Translations under genes and position numbers: made by a program
Notes under the pieces: model-generated
Seen by the model: only the letters and a program-made list of their open reading frames with translations
Database searches by the model: none
Told to the model about the DNA's origin: nothing
In this document: piece after piece, positions 25,781 to 45,873 of the stretch
Layout: every line of letters starts with the position of its first letter
Numbering within the stretch: position 1 is the first letter of the stretch
Source: Sphingopyxis microcysteis
GTDB taxonomy: Bacteria; Pseudomonadota; Alphaproteobacteria; Sphingomonadales; Sphingomonadaceae
Direction: 5' to 3'
Assembly (NCBI RefSeq): GCF_012274265.1
Contig: NZ_JAANYY010000002.1
Span: 248,001-312,000 of the forward strand
DNA length: 64,000 nucleotides

Positions 25781-26515
25781 ATGTCCAATATCATCTCTTC
25801 CAACCGCCCCGGTGGCGGCATCAAGTGGCAATGGCCGTCGATCCATCCCGAAGGCCGCAAGTTCCTGCTCATCGCCGGTATCGTCACGCTGTGCTTCTGG
25901 CTGCTCGGCTGGGAAATTGTCGGCTGGCTGATGTTCGGGGTGACCTTGTGGGTCGGCGCCTTCTTCCGCGATCCGGTTCGCGTTACGCCGACCGGCAGCG
26001 ACGTCGTCATCGCACCTGCCGACGGGTTGATCACCCAGATCGCCGAAGTCGCGCCGCCGCCCGAGATCGCGGGCGCCGACGGGATCGGCGACGCACCGAT
26101 GCTGCGCGTGTCGATTTTCATGAGCGTGTTCGATGTCCACATCAACCGCACGCCGGTGGCAGGAACGCTGCGCAAGCTGGTGTATATTCCCGGAAAATTC
26201 CTCAACGCCGATCTCGACAAGGCGAGCGAGGAGAATGAACGCCAGCATTTCGTCGTCGAACGCGCCGACGGGGTGCGGATCGGCTTCACCCAGATTGCGG
26301 GACTGGTTGCGCGGCGGATCATGCCGTTCGTCACCATGGGCAACGATCTCGCCACCGGCCAGCGCGTCGGCCTCATTCGTTTCGGCAGCCGCGTCGACGT
26401 CTATCTGCCCGCCGGTACGACGCCGCAGGTGCTGCTCGGACAGCGGACGCTGGCGGGCGAAACCGTGATCGCGCGGATCGGCCAGGCGGTCATGATCGAC
26501 GGCATCGGGCAATAG
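25781..26515 (+). CDS. psd: Phosphatidylserine decarboxylase proenzyme
   Basis: 244 residues, the short form found in many alphaproteobacteria. It makes phosphatidylethanolamine from phosphatidylserine at the inner membrane. One or two membrane segments lie at about 30-66. Conserved pieces: [24 protein letters not shown], and the self-cleavage site RFGSR, where Ser203 would become the pyruvoyl cofactor of the small alpha chain. The frame is open upstream into icd antisense; the ATG at 25781 gives the conserved start. The next gene, pssA, begins two bases after its stop, so substrate-making and substrate-using enzymes share an operon. Confidence 0.93.
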
Positions 26516-26516
26516 G

Positions 26517-27290
26517 GTGAGCGAAGACCAGCAGATCGCCCCCGACGCTGCCGGGCGCCGCATCGGCGGCATCAGCCTCCGCGCCTTCGCGCCCAATGCG
26601 ATCACCGTGCTGGCGCTCTGTTTCGGCCTGACCGGGGTGCGCTTCGCGATTGGCGGGCAGTTCGAGCTGGCGATCGCCGCGGTGATCTTTGCCGGGGTGC
26701 TCGACGGGATGGACGGGCGCATCGCCCGGCTGCTGCGCGCGCAGAGCAAATTCGGCGCCGAGCTTGATTCGCTGTCGGACGTCATCGCCTTCGGCGTGGC
26801 GCCCGCGATGATCCTGTTCCTGTGGTCGCTTCAGGACGCGCCGAAATTCGGCTGGACCGCGGCGCTCGCGCTCGCGGTCTGTTGCGCGCTCCGCCTCGCG
26901 CGCTTCAACTCGCGCATGGATGCCGATTTTCAGCCACACAAGTCGGCGGGCTTCAACACCGGTATCCCCGCCCCGGCAGGCGCCGGCCTGTCCTTCGTCC
27001 CCGTCTATCTGTGGCTGACCACGGGCAATGAACTGTTCCGCGAATGGTATGTGGTGATGCCGTGGGCACTGGCCGTCGCGATGCTGATGATCTCGGCAAT
27101 CCCGACTTACAGCTGGGCCTCGATCCGCCTGCGCCGGTCGTGGCGGCTGTTCGCGCTGGCGGGGGTCGGGTTGCTCGGTGCCGCGCTGGTGACGGCGCCT
27201 TGGCTGACCCTGCTGGCGGTCTGCGCAATCTATGCGGCGACGCTGCCGTTCGGGCTGGCCAGCTATGCGCGGGTCAGGCGGCGCGGCTGA
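26517..27290 (+). CDS. pssA: CDP-diacylglycerol-serine O-phosphatidyltransferase
   Basis: 257 residues with a GTG start at 26517, one base after the psd stop. It transfers phosphatidyl from CDP-diacylglycerol to serine in the inner membrane. The CDP-alcohol phosphotransferase signature DG-x2-AR-x8-G-x3-D-x3-D is complete, from Asp66 to Asp88 (DGRIAR...GAELDSLSD). About seven to eight hydrophobic segments follow or flank it. Together with psd it forms the phosphatidylethanolamine branch, fed by CdsA encoded 5 kb downstream. Its 3' end overlaps the convergent small gene by 17 bases. Confidence 0.94.
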   Translation: MSEDQQIAPDAAGRRIGGISLRAFAPNAITVLALCFGLTGVRFAIGGQFELAIAAVIFAGVLDGMDGRIARLLRAQSKFGAELDSLSDVIAFGVAPAMILFLWSLQDAPKFGWTAALALAVCCALRLARFNSRMDADFQPHKSAGFNTGIPAPAGAGLSFVPVYLWLTTGNELFREWYVVMPWALAVAMLMISAIPTYSWASIRLRRSWRLFALAGVGLLGAALVTAPWLTLLAVCAIYAATLPFGLASYARVRRRG

Positions 27291-27534
27291 ACTGCGGACG
27301 AGCCGTCATGGCGACGGGCACCCGGCGCGGGACAGCGCGGCGCGCATTTGTCCGGTGGATCGGCAGCGCGGTGACCGCGGGGTCCGATTCGGGTGACGTG
27401 GCGACCGGGAAAGCGCCTTCGCCAAGCAGCGCCGACAGGATCGCGGCCTCATTCGATTTCAGCATCGCCAGGATCACCGTGATGCCGAGTCCGGCGGCGA
27501 GGGCAAAGAGGAGTGCGGCTGCGACCTGAACCAT
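27274..27534 (-). CDS. Small single-pass membrane protein under a LexA box
   Basis: About 86 residues, family not recognised. One N-terminal membrane helix (AAALLFALAAGLGITVILAML, about residues 4-24) is followed by a soluble tail rich in Arg and Pro. The start at 27534 is supported by GGAAGGA seven bases upstream. The frame is open to 27609, but that part is basic and unlike a protein N-terminus. A perfect alphaproteobacterial LexA operator lies 76-90 bases upstream, so it is probably DNA-damage induced. Small SOS-induced inner-membrane proteins that block cell division (SidA-like) are known in Caulobacter. This one has the right size and topology, but any such role is inference, since no sequence similarity was tested. 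Confidence 0.65.
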   Translation of the reverse strand: MVQVAAALLFALAAGLGITVILAMLKSNEAAILSALLGEGAFPVATSPESDPAVTALPIHRTNARRAVPRRVPVAMTARPQFSRAA

Positions 27535-27551
27535 GATCTGTCCTTCCGGGT

Positions 27552-27565
27552 TTTCGTTAACGAAA
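27552..27565. promoter_or_regulatory. Perfect 14-bp palindrome in the leader of the LexA-box gene
   Basis: TTTCGTTAACGAAA, positioned 18-31 bases upstream of the ATG at 27534 and downstream of the LexA box. It could be a second operator or a small hairpin near the ribosome binding site. No binding protein is recognised. Confidence 0.4.
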
Positions 27566-27609
27566 CCTTTCCGACCGGAATGACGGTTTCGCTTGGCTTT
27601 TAGTTGCAT

Positions 27610-27624
27610 GTTCTTGATTTGTTC
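27610..27624 (-). promoter_or_regulatory. LexA (SOS) box, alphaproteobacterial type
   Basis: GTTC TTGATTT GTTC on the plus strand (GAAC-N7-GAAC on the minus strand) is an exact match to the direct-repeat LexA operator known in alphaproteobacteria. On the minus strand it is embedded in TTGAGAACAAATCAAGAAC, where TTGAGA could also be a -35 box. It faces the small membrane protein gene at 27274-27534. rpsB lies 222 bases away on the other side and is a much less likely target. Confidence 0.75.
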
Positions 27625-27845
27625 TCAACTGTTTTGCGACGAACCGAGTCAAATTGTCGCCGGATCGATCGGCGGGGTGCGCCCGCGGCTCGTCGCAAAG
27701 CCGCGCTCGACGCTTGCTTTTGACCGCCAAGGCCGCTAACGGGCCGCCCATTCCACATGGAAGGCGCACATAAACCGGTGCCGGGATCGTCGCTTGCGAC
27801 CCCTGGTTCTTGCTTTCCAGAGGACCAACCGGAAGGAGAAAGACC

Positions 27846-28670
27846 ATGGCGGCACCTGTCGTCACGATGCAGAATCTTATCGAGGCTGGCGCCCACTTCG
27901 GCCACCAGACCCACCGCTGGAACCCGCGCATGAAGCCGTATATCTTCGGCGCGCGCAACGGCATCCACATCCTCGACCTGTCGCAGACCGTGCCGCTTTT
28001 TGCGCGCGCGCTCGAATTCGTCGCCTCCTCGGCGGCGTCGGGCGGCAAGGTGCTGTTCGTCGGCACCAAGCGCCAGGCGCAGGGTCCGATCGCCGACGCC
28101 GCACGCGCTTCGGGTCAGCACTTCGTCAACCACCGCTGGCTGGGCGGCATGCTCACCAACTGGAAGACGATCTCGAACTCGATCAAGCGTCTCAAGACCC
28201 TCGAGGAACAGCTTTCGGGCGACACCTCGGGCCTGACCAAGAAGGAAGTGCTCAACAAGACGCGCGAACGCGACAAGCTCGAAATGAGCCTTGGCGGCAT
28301 CCGCGACATGGGCGGCATTCCCGACGTGATGTTCGTGATCGACGCGAACAAGGAAGAGCTGGCGATCAAGGAAGCCAACGTCCTTGGCATTCCGGTCGTC
28401 GCGATCCTCGATTCGAACGTCTCGCCCGACGGCATCGCCTTCCCGGTTCCGGCGAACGATGACGCCGCCCGCGCGATCCGTCTCTACTGCGACGCGATCG
28501 CTCAGGCCGCGACGCGTGGCGGCCAGCAGGCGCGCGCCGATCGCGGCGAAGATCTGGGTGCGGCGGTCGAACCCGTTGCCGAACCCGTGCTCGTCGAAGC
28601 GGCTGTGACCGAAGATGAACAGGTTCCGGCCGAAGCGGCCGCCGAAACCGAACGCCAGAGCGACGCTTAA
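27846..28670 (+). CDS. rpsB: 30S ribosomal protein S2
   Basis: 274 residues. S2 binds the 30S body and is needed for S1 recruitment. The N-terminus [22 protein letters not shown] and the core [11 protein letters not shown] and [13 protein letters not shown] are typical. A C-terminal Ala/Glu-rich extension (about 235-274) is seen in alphaproteobacterial S2. The start ATG at 27846 follows GGAAGGAG. The frame is open a little upstream (27810) without conservation. A terminator-like hairpin follows before tsf, so S2 and EF-Ts levels may be uncoupled in part. Confidence 0.97.
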
Positions 28671-28682
28671 TCCGCTTTGCGC

Positions 28683-28730
28683 ATGACGGGACGGCGCGGC
28701 TCTGCCCGACGCTGTCCCGTCATCGTTTTT
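28683..28730 (+). terminator. Terminator or attenuator between rpsB and tsf
   Basis: ATGACGGGAC (28683-28692) pairs perfectly with GTCCCGTCAT (28714-28723), with an inner GC extension, followed by CG and five T. It lies 12 bases after the rpsB stop. Partial readthrough to tsf is likely because EF-Ts is essential, but tsf may also have its own promoter. Confidence 0.75.
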
Positions 28731-28803
28731 ACTTGTCGTCCCGCCATGCGCGCGGACGTCCCGCGGGCCGAAACGGGCCCGCCCTTTTGGAAAGGAATAT
28801 CCC

Positions 28804-29730
28804 ATGGCTGAAATTACGGCCGCTCTCGTCAAGGAACTGCGCGACCGCACCGGCGCCGGCATGATGGACTGCAAAAAGGCGCTCGCCGAAAATGGCGGCG
28901 ACATCGAAGCGTCGATCGACTGGCTGCGCACCAAGGGTCTCGCCGCCGCCGCCAAGAAGGCTGGCCGCGTCGCCGCCGAAGGTCTCGTCGGCGTTGCCAC
29001 CGACGGCACGCGCGGTGCGATGGTCGAAGTGAACAGCGAAACCGACTTCGTCGCCAAGAACGAACAGTTCCAGGGCTTCGTCCGCGACGTCACCAATGTC
29101 GCGCTCGCCGGCAGCATCACCGACATCGAAGCGCTTGGCGCTGCCGCTTATCCGACCGGCGGTACCGTCGCCGAGGCGCTGACGCAGAATATCGCCACGA
29201 TCGGTGAGAACCAGTCGCTCCGCCGCACTGCGATCGTGTCGGTCGGCTCGGGCGTCGTGACCGGCTATGTCCACAACGCTGCCGCGCCCGGCATGGGCAA
29301 GATCGGCGTGCTCGTCGCGCTCGAATCGACCGCGGGCGCCGACGTCCTCGAACCGCTCGGCAAGCAGCTCGCGATGCACGTCGCCGCCGCCAACCCGCTG
29401 GCGCTGAACGGCGACGACCTCGACGCCGACCTCGTCGCGCGCGAACGCGCGATCGCCGAGGAAAAGGCCGCGCAGTCGGGCAAGCCCGCCGACATCGTGT
29501 CGAAGATGGTCGATGGCGCGATCGCGAAATTCCGCAAGGAAAACGCGCTGCTGTCGCAGCTGTTCGTGATGGACGGCAAGACCCCGGTCGCCGAAGTCGT
29601 CGCCGCTGCCGGCAAGGACGTTGGCGCGACGATCACGCTCAAGGGCTTCACCCGCTTCCAGCTCGGCGAAGGCATCGAGAAGGAAGAAAGCGATTTCGCG
29701 GCGGAAGTCGCGGCGGTCGCCGGCGTTTAA
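28804..29730 (+). CDS. tsf: Elongation factor Ts
   Basis: 308 residues. It exchanges GDP for GTP on EF-Tu in the cytosol. The N-terminal UBA-like domain has [19 protein letters not shown], and the core has the contact motif [13 protein letters not shown]. Ribosome binding site GGAAAGGA precedes the ATG. It follows rpsB as in most bacteria and is followed by a family F palindrome, then pyrH. Confidence 0.97.
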
Positions 29731-29777
29731 CAGAAGAATTGGGCTGCGGGCTTCGGTCAGCATTTTTTCCCAGCGTT

Positions 29778-29850
29778 CGTCATGCCGGACTTGATCCGGC
29801 ATCCACTCCGGCCTCGCCGCATGGACCCCGGATCAAGTCCGGGGTGACGA
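29778..29850. repeat. Palindromic repeat family F
   Basis: Arms of about 28 bases (29778-29805 and about 29823-29850). The left arm contains the hairpin TGCCGGA/TCCGGCA and the right arm CCCCGGA/TCCGGGG. The two arms are also complementary to each other except for a few changes. It lies between tsf and pyrH inside the essential cluster. Confidence 0.75.
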
Positions 29851-29959
29851 CTTGGGAAATGCTGTCCGCACAACGCCGCAGTCCGCTTGGCAATGGCGCG
29901 CGCCTTCACTAGGGTGCGCGCCATTCGCGTATCTAATTCCCAAAGAGGTTCCCCCCGAC

Positions 29960-30691
29960 ATGGCTCTACCCGGCATGAAACGCGTTTTGCTCAAGCTGTC
30001 GGGCGAGGCGTTAATGGGTTCGACCCCGTTCGGCATCGACCCCGAAACCGTCGCGAGCATGGCCGCCGAGGTCAAGGAAGCCAAGGATCGCGGGCTCGAA
30101 ATCTGCCTCGTCATCGGCGGCGGCAACATCTTCCGCGGCATGGCGGGCGCTGCCAAGGGCATGGACCGGGCGCAGGCCGATTATATGGGCATGCTTGCGA
30201 CCGTGATGAACGCGCTGGCGATGCAAAATGCGCTCGAACAGCTGGGCGTCCAGACGCGCGTCCAGTCGGCGATCGAGATGGACAAGGTATGCGAACCCGT
30301 CATCCGCCGCCGCGCCGAACGCCATCTGGAGAAGGGCCGCGTGGTGATCTTCGCCGCGGGCGTCGGCGCGCCTTATTTTACCACCGACAGCGGCGCCGCG
30401 CTCCGCGCCGCCGAAATGAAGTGCGACGCGCTCTTGAAGGGTACCAGTGTCGATGGTGTCTATAATGCCGACCCCAAAAAGGATAAGTCGGCGGTCCGTT
30501 ACGACACGCTGAGCTACGACCGGGTGCTCGCCGACAATCTGAAGGTGATGGACGCGAGCGCGGTGGCGCTGTGCCGCGACAATCAGATCCCGATCGTCGT
30601 ATTCAACATTCGCGAAGCCGGCAATCTGGCGCGCGTGCTGGCGGGCGAGGGGGTTTCGACCGTCGTCACCGATGCCGCCGCGACCGCCTGA
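29960..30691 (+). CDS. pyrH: Uridylate (UMP) kinase
   Basis: 243 residues. It phosphorylates UMP to UDP in pyrimidine synthesis. It is a bacterial hexameric type of the amino acid kinase fold: [27 protein letters not shown], and the ATP/UMP site [17 protein letters not shown]. The start ATG at 29960 is chosen because it gives the conserved N-terminus; AAAGAGGTT lies about 10 bases upstream. It is followed after 26 bases by frr, so the two are probably cotranscribed. Confidence 0.97.
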
Positions 30692-44481: not shown

Positions 44482-45873
44482 ATGACGACTTTTAACGACT
44501 TTGGCCTGCACGCCGACATCAATCGCGCGCTTGCCGCCAAGGATTACAGCCAGCCGACCCCGATCCAGATGCAGGCGATCCCGCCGCTGATGAAGGGCCG
44601 CGACCTGTGTGGTATCGCGCAGACCGGCACCGGCAAGACCGCCGGCTTCTCGCTGCCCTCGATCCACCACCTGATCACCTATCCGCACAAGACCAACCCG
44701 CGCAGCTGCCGGATGCTTGTGCTCGCGCCGACGCGCGAACTCGCGGCGCAGATCGCGCAGAGCTGCCGGGACTATGGCCGCTTTACCAAGCTGCGCGTCT
44801 CGACCGTGTTCGGCGGCGTGCCCGTTGGCAAGCAGATCCGCGACCTTGCGCAGGGCGTCGAAATCCTCGTCGCTACGCCGGGCCGCCTGCTGGACCTCAT
44901 CGACCAGCGCGCGCTGCGCCTCGATGATGTTGAAATCTTCGTTTTGGACGAAGCCGACCAGATGATGGACATGGGCTTCATCCATTCGCTGCGCCGCATC
45001 GCCAAGCTGCTGCCCTCGCGCCGCCAGAACCTCTTCTTCTCGGCGACGATGCCGAAGGAAATCGCGCATCTCGCCGAACAATTCCTCGAAGATCCCGTGA
45101 CCGTGTCGGTGACCCCGCAGGCGACCACCGCCGAAAAGATCCGCCAGTTCTCGACCTTCGTCGAGCAGAAGGAAAAGCAGGCGCTGCTGCACCATGTCAT
45201 CAAGACGTCGGACATCGACCGCGCGCTGATCTTCACGCGCACCAAGCATGGCGCCGACCGCGTCGTCCGCCACCTGAAGGGCGCGGGCATCGAAGCCTAT
45301 GCGATCCACGGCAACAAGAGCCAGGCGCAGCGCACCACCGCGCTGCAGGCCTTCCGTTCGGGTCAGGTGCGCCTGCTCGTCGCGACCGACATCGCGGCGC
45401 GCGGCATCGACGTGTCGGGCGTGTCGCATGTCATCAACTTCGAGATTCCGAACGTCCCCGAACAATATGTTCACCGCATCGGCCGCACCGCGCGTGCCGG
45501 GGCAGAGGGCATCGCGATCAGCTTCGTCGCCCCCGATGAGCGCACCTATATGCGCGACATCGAGCGCGTGACGCGAACCAAGTCCGAACCGATGGCGCTG
45601 CCCGAAGGCTTCAACGAGCTCGTGCGCAACCTGCCCAAGCCCGCGGCGCCGCCGCGCGATACCGGCAGCAAGGGCCGCAATCCGCAGCGCCAACGCGACG
45701 AAGCGCTCGCCGGGCGCGGCGAGGGCGGTCGCGGCGGCAACCAGCCGCGCGGCGACCGCGGCCCGCGCCGCGACGGCGCCGCCGCCGATGGCCAGCCGCA
45801 GCGCAAGCGCCGCTTCCGCCCGCGCAACAAGAGCGTCGGCGCGCACAAGGGCGCGGTCAAGCGCGTCGGTTGA
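44482..45873 (+). CDS. rhlE: DEAD-box RNA helicase, RhlE-like
   Basis: 463 residues. All helicase motifs are visible: Q motif with PTPIQMQAIPPLM, Walker A AQTGTGKT, PTRELAAQ, DEAD in VLDEADQMMDMGF, SAT, and HRIGRTARAG. The N-terminus (FNDFGLHADINRAL) and first domain resemble RhlE. The C-terminal tail (about 395-463) is Arg/Gly/Gln-rich and basic, typical of RNA-binding extensions. It unwinds RNA in ribosome assembly or decay. The ATG at 44482 follows a short AT-rich stretch (GAGTATTTT). The long leader before it holds two hairpins. Confidence 0.92.
   Translation: MTTFNDFGLHADINRALAAKDYSQPTPIQMQAIPPLMKGRDLCGIAQTGTGKTAGFSLPSIHHLITYPHKTNPRSCRMLVLAPTRELAAQIAQSCRDYGRFTKLRVSTVFGGVPVGKQIRDLAQGVEILVATPGRLLDLIDQRALRLDDVEIFVLDEADQMMDMGFIHSLRRIAKLLPSRRQNLFFSATMPKEIAHLAEQFLEDPVTVSVTPQATTAEKIRQFSTFVEQKEKQALLHHVIKTSDIDRALIFTRTKHGADRVVRHLKGAGIEAYAIHGNKSQAQRTTALQAFRSGQVRLLVATDIAARGIDVSGVSHVINFEIPNVPEQYVHRIGRTARAGAEGIAISFVAPDERTYMRDIERVTRTKSEPMALPEGFNELVRNLPKPAAPPRDTGSKGRNPQRQRDEALAGRGEGGRGGNQPRGDRGPRRDGAAADGQPQRKRRFRPRNKSVGAHKGAVKRVG

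Follow-up and report, generated by a model that had tools for sequence, protein, structure and literature searches.

A small membrane protein gene behind a LexA box in Sphingopyxis and related genera: a candidate SOS-induced inhibitor of cell division

Introduction

SidA of Caulobacter is described as a 29-amino-acid, SOS-induced protein of the inner membrane that binds FtsW (PMC4211646). The same source describes DidA, also from Caulobacter, a division inhibitor of 71 amino acids that, like the protein considered here, is small and has a single helix; DidA is SOS-independent and is induced via DriD, and we liken it to our protein by description only (PMC4211646). YneA (Bacillus), SosA (Staphylococcus) and ChiZ (Mycobacterium) are reported to be SOS-induced, single-helix inhibitors of late division; proteases remove YneA and, it is proposed, SosA as well (PMC13396833, PMC6851548). 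SosA that lacks its last 10 residues accumulates to a greater extent (PMC6851548). A 2026 study places the YneA helix on TM7 of FtsW and predicts, with low confidence, that SidA, SosA and ChiZ do likewise (PMC13396833). LexA also controls the single-helix membrane peptides DinQ and TisB of E. coli, as we propose for the gene in this study. DinQ has 27 amino acids and an antisense RNA (PMC3567139).

In our judgment, the sequences of such inhibitors change too quickly to be caught by ordinary homology searches, which leaves SOS control of division unmapped in many bacteria. Here we examine a 64,000-nucleotide stretch of Sphingopyxis microcysteis DNA (hereafter, the window), in which a small membrane protein gene lies behind a LexA box next to rpsB. 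Among the matches listed in the open-licence literature on LexA, SOS and SidA in sphingomonads and on rpsB, no published description of this gene appears. A transcriptome study of Sphingopyxis granuli reports that lexA, recA and imuAB-dnaE2 are induced without oxygen, and the portion of that article available to us does not name the gene (PMC6472365). We propose, with moderate confidence, that the gene is the Sphingopyxis member of a set of fast-evolving, SOS-induced inner-membrane division inhibitors that would be short-lived and would act as an analogue of SidA.

Results and discussion

Architecture of the locus

The first-pass annotation of this DNA had described a gene for an 86-residue, single-helix membrane protein, equipped with a good ribosome binding site and nothing else, behind a perfect LexA operator. 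The features of the locus are as follows.

27274 to 27534, minus strand: coding sequence for 86 amino acids, MVQVAAALLF...QFSRAA, stop codon included; called from the reading frame and from homologues in relatives.
27610 to 27624, minus strand: putative LexA operator GAAC-N7-GAAC (GTTC-N7-GTTC on the plus strand); called from sequence and kept in 47 of 47 loci.
27623 to 27628, minus strand: possible −35 element TTGAGA, which the box overlaps; picked out by eye, at least 90% conserved, promoter function putative.
27541 to 27547, minus strand: GGAAGGA ribosome binding site; called from sequence.
27454 to 27531, minus strand: predicted transmembrane helix, codons 2 to 27; called from an AlphaFold2 helix and an uncharged core across the family.
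27277 to 27288, minus strand: C-terminal SRAA, codons 83 to 86, a candidate ssrA-like degron; called from the frequency of -AA ends and the genome's own tmRNA tag.
27846 to 28670, plus strand: rpsB, the divergent neighbor; TIGR01011 match above the cut-off.
26517 to 27290, plus strand: pssA-like gene, the convergent neighbor; TIGR00473 match with an E-value of 2.3e-28 and a score of 99.2 bits, short of the cut-off of 107.

The reading frame, its ribosome binding site and the modeled helix all bear out this description, but the gene does not stand entirely by itself, as its 3′ end overlaps that of the pssA-like gene tail to tail by 17 bp. The box reads GTTCTTGATTTGTTC on the plus strand and GAACAAATCAAGAAC on the strand of the gene, and a gap of 75 nucleotides separates it from the ATG. 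If translation began at the upstream-most ATG (27609), the frame would encode 111 amino acids. This start was rejected since its frame is not kept in relatives, where the distance between box and ATG ranges from 80 to 91; the start of the 86-residue protein at 27534 is the one preceded by GGAAGGA. Between the box and rpsB, the block TGCGACGAA at positions 27635 to 27643 of the plus strand (minus-strand reading TTCGTCGCA) shows conservation of at least 90% across 47 sequences and is possibly part of the rpsB promoter.

A search of Rfam around the gene (positions 26500 to 30000) gave no match at an E-value of 0.1. A conserved hairpin in the 5′ leader, GAAACC...GGTTTC, had been noticed by eye and was dropped because 27 sequences yield 0 consensus pairs and four show no extra stability (single-strand z-scores of −0.53 to 1.01). 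With regard to a mobile origin, a tblastn search of the window protein against plasmids and phages likewise gave no match at an E-value of 0.1.

Conservation of the LexA operator

The bare 15-mer occurs in the 64-kb window at the level expected by chance (2 matches versus 1.91 expected), and the significance of the box derives instead from its conservation across loci. Homologues of the gene are present in 33 of 36 genomes of the same genus, its own included, with no homologue in G015, G017 and G021, and the box accompanies the gene in all 30 loci fetched from these genomes. A second collection supplied 47 homologous loci, most under the name Sphingopyxis, and every one carries a perfect box, at −80 to −91. 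In an alignment of 47 upstream regions (46 loci and the window), all eight half-site bases are 100% identical, versus an average of 0.69 over the rest of the 200 upstream nucleotides, and the TTGA immediately preceding the box reaches at least 90% conservation. LexA bound at this site would, we infer, cover the −35-like element.

The operator also matches the published consensus GTTCN7GTTC (PMC12700426) and agrees with the box before the genome's own lexA. That gene is the single lexA match in the genome, scores above the curated cut-off and has GAAC-N7-GAAC just upstream. Boxes also precede uvrA (Pfam), a ribonucleotide reductase gene and an ImuA-like gene, the last called from an NCBIfam match with an E-value of 5.5e-9 that falls below the family cut-off. 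Genome-wide, there are 83 box matches versus 45 for a reversed control pattern. This excess is weak evidence for boxes, since the same control in two Caulobacter genomes gives little or no excess (96 versus 75, and 97 versus 100). Given the conserved operator, control of the gene by LexA is well supported, as the first-pass annotation had held from the letters of the box, and it is very probable that this control takes the form of repression.

Two other boxes deserve mention as observations in their own right. A second perfect GTTC-N7-GTTC lies in the window at 45575 to 45589 on the minus strand, at chance level by count. Elsewhere in the genome (L031, position 1535), a perfect box begins 43 nucleotides before an open reading frame (ORF) for a highly basic protein of 58 amino acids, which has no Pfam hit.

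The box and the gene recur across the family

Of the 147 genomes sampled from the order, 142 yielded an rpsB match; 64 of these belong to the same family as the window and 78 to other families. Loci were then called by a rule that is blind to the C-terminus, requiring a perfect box, a start codon 25 to 200 nucleotides later and an ORF of 40 to 130 amino acids that has an N-terminal hydrophobic segment and is read away from rpsB. Such a gene lies within 1.1 kb of rpsB in 46 of the 64 family genomes (the 64 still including G015), and the same rule applied to the opposite strand finds none in these 64. On the whole window, either strand, its sole find is the gene at 27274 to 27534. The search was extended to about 4 kb where the first pass had no find, and 51 of 63 genomes then pass the rule with a ribosome binding site; G015 was dropped from the 63, its rpsB being at a contig end. 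The helix score was set at 1.7 without a demand for a ribosome binding site for the count of 46, and at 1.5 with that demand for the count of 51. These thresholds were chosen after inspection of the data, and one search that favored ORFs ending in -AA was left out of all counts.

Among the 63 assessable genomes, a perfect box is present in 55 (the 51 strict cases plus G157, G149, G106 and G177), a box with one mismatch in three (G155, G097 and G091), and none was found in five, for a total of 58 members. The proteins behind perfect boxes have 29 to 108 amino acids and an N-terminal helix, are encoded within about 5 kb of rpsB, and span 21 of the 26 sampled genera. In G091 the gene is located away from rpsB, its 3′ end facing that of a pssA-like gene, behind one-mismatch boxes including GAACAAATCAGGATC at −43. 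The five genomes without the gene (G085, G135, G175, G151 and G163) were searched over the 4 kb before rpsB (3.3 kb in G175, to the contig end) and with the profile of the family alignment A2 to an E-value of 1; none of the weak A2 matches in these genomes corresponds to a boxed small helix ORF. All five possess lexA. In 26 genomes from other families of the order, rpsB is present with no box within 0.7 to 1.5 kb. The gene is thus not restricted to one genus and occurs in most of the family's sampled genera.

One alternative is that the box serves rpsB (S2), whose start lies 221 nucleotides downstream of it in the window, with the small ORF being incidental. We judge this to be very improbable. 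The ORF is 0.7 to 3.1 kb from rpsB in seven genomes and about 4 to 5 kb away in G106 and G177, and each of these distant ORFs keeps a perfect box of its own, which argues that the box is tied to the small gene and not to rpsB. Moreover, the first 1.1 kb before rpsB is free of boxes in G070 and G082, the 26 genomes of other families have an rpsB that is unboxed over 0.7 to 1.5 kb, and the ORF, its ribosome binding site and its C-terminus are conserved. The coincidence of a chance box with a chance ORF, which the frequency of the 15-mer in the window would allow, is the least credible explanation of all given the box in 47 of 47 loci, its recurrence across the family and the empty opposite-strand control (0 of 64).

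The first-pass annotation had expected that box and gene would be conserved together and that an ORF kept without the box would count against its claim. The box does follow the gene in the relatives surveyed, with 58 of 63 genomes carrying a boxed member, but box-less second ORFs exist in at least two. G103 has, beside its boxed gene, a second small helix ORF 344 nucleotides upstream of the start of the rpsB match (L086), which points away from rpsB, ends in SEAA and has a best box with two mismatches; it is possibly a duplicated copy under different control. G097 has a second profile hit without a box (L246, E-value of 1.8e-6). These two second ORFs speak against a strict pairing of box and gene. 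In G176, a further box-less second ORF at position 400 ends in PAI, and its best box has three mismatches. The weak profile hits L239, L244 and L256, which end in ...LEAIAAGVDL, were not counted because they look like some other small membrane protein, presumably one that is PspB-like.

Sequence divergence among members

In alignment A2, members outside Sphingopyxis are 16 to 39% identical to the window protein, while RpsB of other genera in the family retains 74 to 91% identity. This alignment holds 36 of the 53 proteins behind strict or one-mismatch boxes plus one more Sphingopyxis sequence. The 17 proteins omitted include all that do not end in AA, such that the invariant last two columns of A2 are the result of selection. 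In leave-one-genus-out profile (HMM) searches, 46 of 53 members outrank all 200 composition-matched decoys, in which helix and tail were shuffled separately; the members that do not are G146, G094, G174, G124, G171, G166 and G144. The sequences thus appear to form one family despite their fast divergence.

The first-pass annotation did not recognize the protein, and the databases are in agreement, as among 37 members no two match the same family in Pfam, NCBIfam or PHROGs. The window protein itself has no Pfam hit. The best single match, of one of the 37 members to a PHROG tail tape measure protein (E-value of 5.7e-4), is taken as chance. It is the combination of synteny, operator and C-terminus that reveals one protein set across 21 of 26 genera.

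A single helix followed by a basic tail

AlphaFold2, run with 40 Sphingopyxis-type sequences, predicts a helix from residue 2 to 27 (block pLDDT of 94 to 98), a short helix from 29 to 36 and a low-confidence tail (block pLDDT of 44 to 55 from residue 41), with a pTM of 0.39. The tail is therefore probably disordered. Among 53 members, whose median length is 79 amino acids, a 17-residue hydrophobic core carries no charged residue in 52, and no Lys or Arg precedes the hydrophobic segment in any. The net charge after the helix averages +6.3 (range −1 to 11), and Pro and Arg make up 23% of tail residues. According to the positive-inside rule, the positively charged side of a helix is cytoplasmic. 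Since basic residues are absent before the helix and abundant after it, the tail is predicted to be cytoplasmic.

These properties can be weighed against the possibility that the gene encodes a TisB- or DinQ-like toxin, an SOS-induced membrane peptide that would depolarize the membrane and slow growth. DinQ is LexA-controlled, single-helix, toxic and of the same size class (PMC3567139), and a sequence that changes fast while keeping its hydrophobicity fits a membrane effect of low specificity. However, DinQ and TisB reside in type I toxin-antitoxin loci, and here there is no conserved leader structure (0 consensus pairs in 27 sequences). The uncharged helix core in 52 of 53 members and the long basic tail in most also run counter to a toxin of this type, which we regard as unlikely.

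Slightly less likely still is an SOS-induced membrane protein that acts elsewhere, by anchoring the nucleoid through its Arg- and Pro-rich tail, in envelope stress or as a protease adaptor. A tail of this charge and composition could make contact with nucleic acid or with lipid head groups, but it is poorly conserved in A2 apart from its end, and it may be dispensable altogether. This last point is raised by the 2.3-Mb genome G146, from the same genus, which keeps a perfect box and a helix-only ORF of 29 amino acids (L144, 0-based position 302), the length of SidA. The G146 ORF has no tail and no AA end, and it falls below the decoy cut in the family profile. If this ORF is real, activity would reside in the helix, and the tail would serve for control. 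The members as a whole form a natural series with which to ask what a division-blocking helix needs, and whether recovery resides in the last two residues.

The C-terminus resembles an ssrA degron

A feature absent from the first-pass annotation is the C-terminal -AA. It is present in 54 of 58 members, with AAA in 29 of 53, and in 43 of the 46 genes found by the C-terminus-blind rule, versus 4 of 111 approximate ORFs from the background of the window's own genome. Within the collection of 47 loci, 44 end in -AA, and the exceptions end in MRA (L193), RVA (L210) and GFS (L211, a locus close to a contig end). The four members without -AA are G002 (RVA), G063 (LTA), G157 (LAS) and G146. Because this ending is enriched over background and because the genome's own tmRNA tag, ANDNEALALAA, ends in LAA, the -AA is likely an encoded ssrA-like degron, and proteolysis through it seems fairly probable. 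CtrA of Caulobacter provides a precedent as a ClpX substrate with the listed degron DPNEQVNAA, which ends in NAA (PMC8138137); that row is labeled N-terminus in the source, and its letters are those of the C-terminus of the CtrA used here. CtrA differs in being a soluble regulator whose degradation is adaptor-dependent. With a reversed topology of the window protein, the reader of this end would instead be a tail-specific protease of the periplasm, for example Tsp/CtpA, along the lines proposed for SosA.

A proposed role in stopping division

Comparison among relatives establishes the operator, its linkage to the gene, the hydrophobic helix, the tail and the -AA end, and from these we propose the following sequence of events for a SidA-like division inhibitor. 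LexA on the box that overlaps the promoter would keep the gene off, and DNA damage would lead to LexA cleavage and production of the protein. Its N-terminal helix would insert into the membrane and leave the basic, disordered tail in the cytoplasm, as predicted from charge. The helix would then dock on a component of the late divisome, most likely FtsW, FtsI or FtsN, and septation would stop. Finally, ClpXP or another ssrA-reading protease would recognize the exposed -AA, such that the block ends when transcription stops. A block of division via the late divisome, as argued from architecture and analogy, is in our view more likely than not. Given the reported placement of the YneA helix on TM7 of FtsW and the low-confidence prediction that SidA, SosA and ChiZ bind alike, FtsW is the first candidate target.

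The mode of binding may nonetheless differ from that of SidA, SosA and YneA, since the predicted topology is reversed. SidA has arginines before its helix, the C-terminus of SosA is outside and is cut there by CtpA as proposed, and the LysM domain of YneA is outside, whereas the tail in the present family is predicted to be inside. YneA and ChiZ both carry LysM, which is present neither in the window protein nor among the hits of 37 members. Points against the proposal are the five of 63 genomes without the gene, the tail-less ORF of G146 and the non-AA ends of G002, G063 and G157. More tentatively, and with slightly less than even confidence, we suggest a self-limiting SOS checkpoint across the family, in which a hypervariable helix would be tuned to the divisome of each genus and the ssrA mimic would end the block once LexA returns.

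Comparison with SidA

All six Caulobacter genomes, recognized by 97 to 100% CtrA identity, contain a 29-amino-acid helix ORF behind the box GAACATCTTGTGAAC. We have taken this ORF as SidA because its length, hydrophobicity and LexA box fit the published description; in one genome its frame also reads 40 amino acids from an earlier ATG. The first-pass annotation likened the layout of the window gene to that of SidA, and the likeness holds for the LexA box and the tiny single-helix membrane protein. It does not extend to detectable homology, as hhalign of A2 against the SidA alignment (A3) gives a probability of 0.1% with one aligned column, a comparison of low power in that A3 has only 29 columns. 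Identity with SidA was accordingly rejected for lack of profile similarity. SidA also has no tail, and its Arg before the helix contrasts with the absence of Lys and Arg there in the family, for which the opposite topology is predicted. The neighborhoods differ as well: the SidA-type ORF lies directly before dnaE (DNA polymerase III alpha), 4.6 to 6.5 kb upstream of rpsB and on its strand, whereas the window gene points away from rpsB and meets the pssA-like gene at its 3′ end. At most, then, the window protein would work like SidA, by virtue of its architecture and control.

The SidA-type ORFs end in LVA in all six genomes, and LVA is a known variant of the ssrA tag (PMC9382460). If the self-limiting checkpoint is true, this ending would suggest degron-ended membrane inhibitors as a general alphaproteobacterial solution. 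A LexA box with further GAAC half-sites is another trait common to SidA and the family. Two or three tandem boxes precede the gene in several genera (g24, g25 and g33; L096, L100, L102, L105, L106, L108 to L110, L117, L120 and others), an arrangement that suggests tighter repression.
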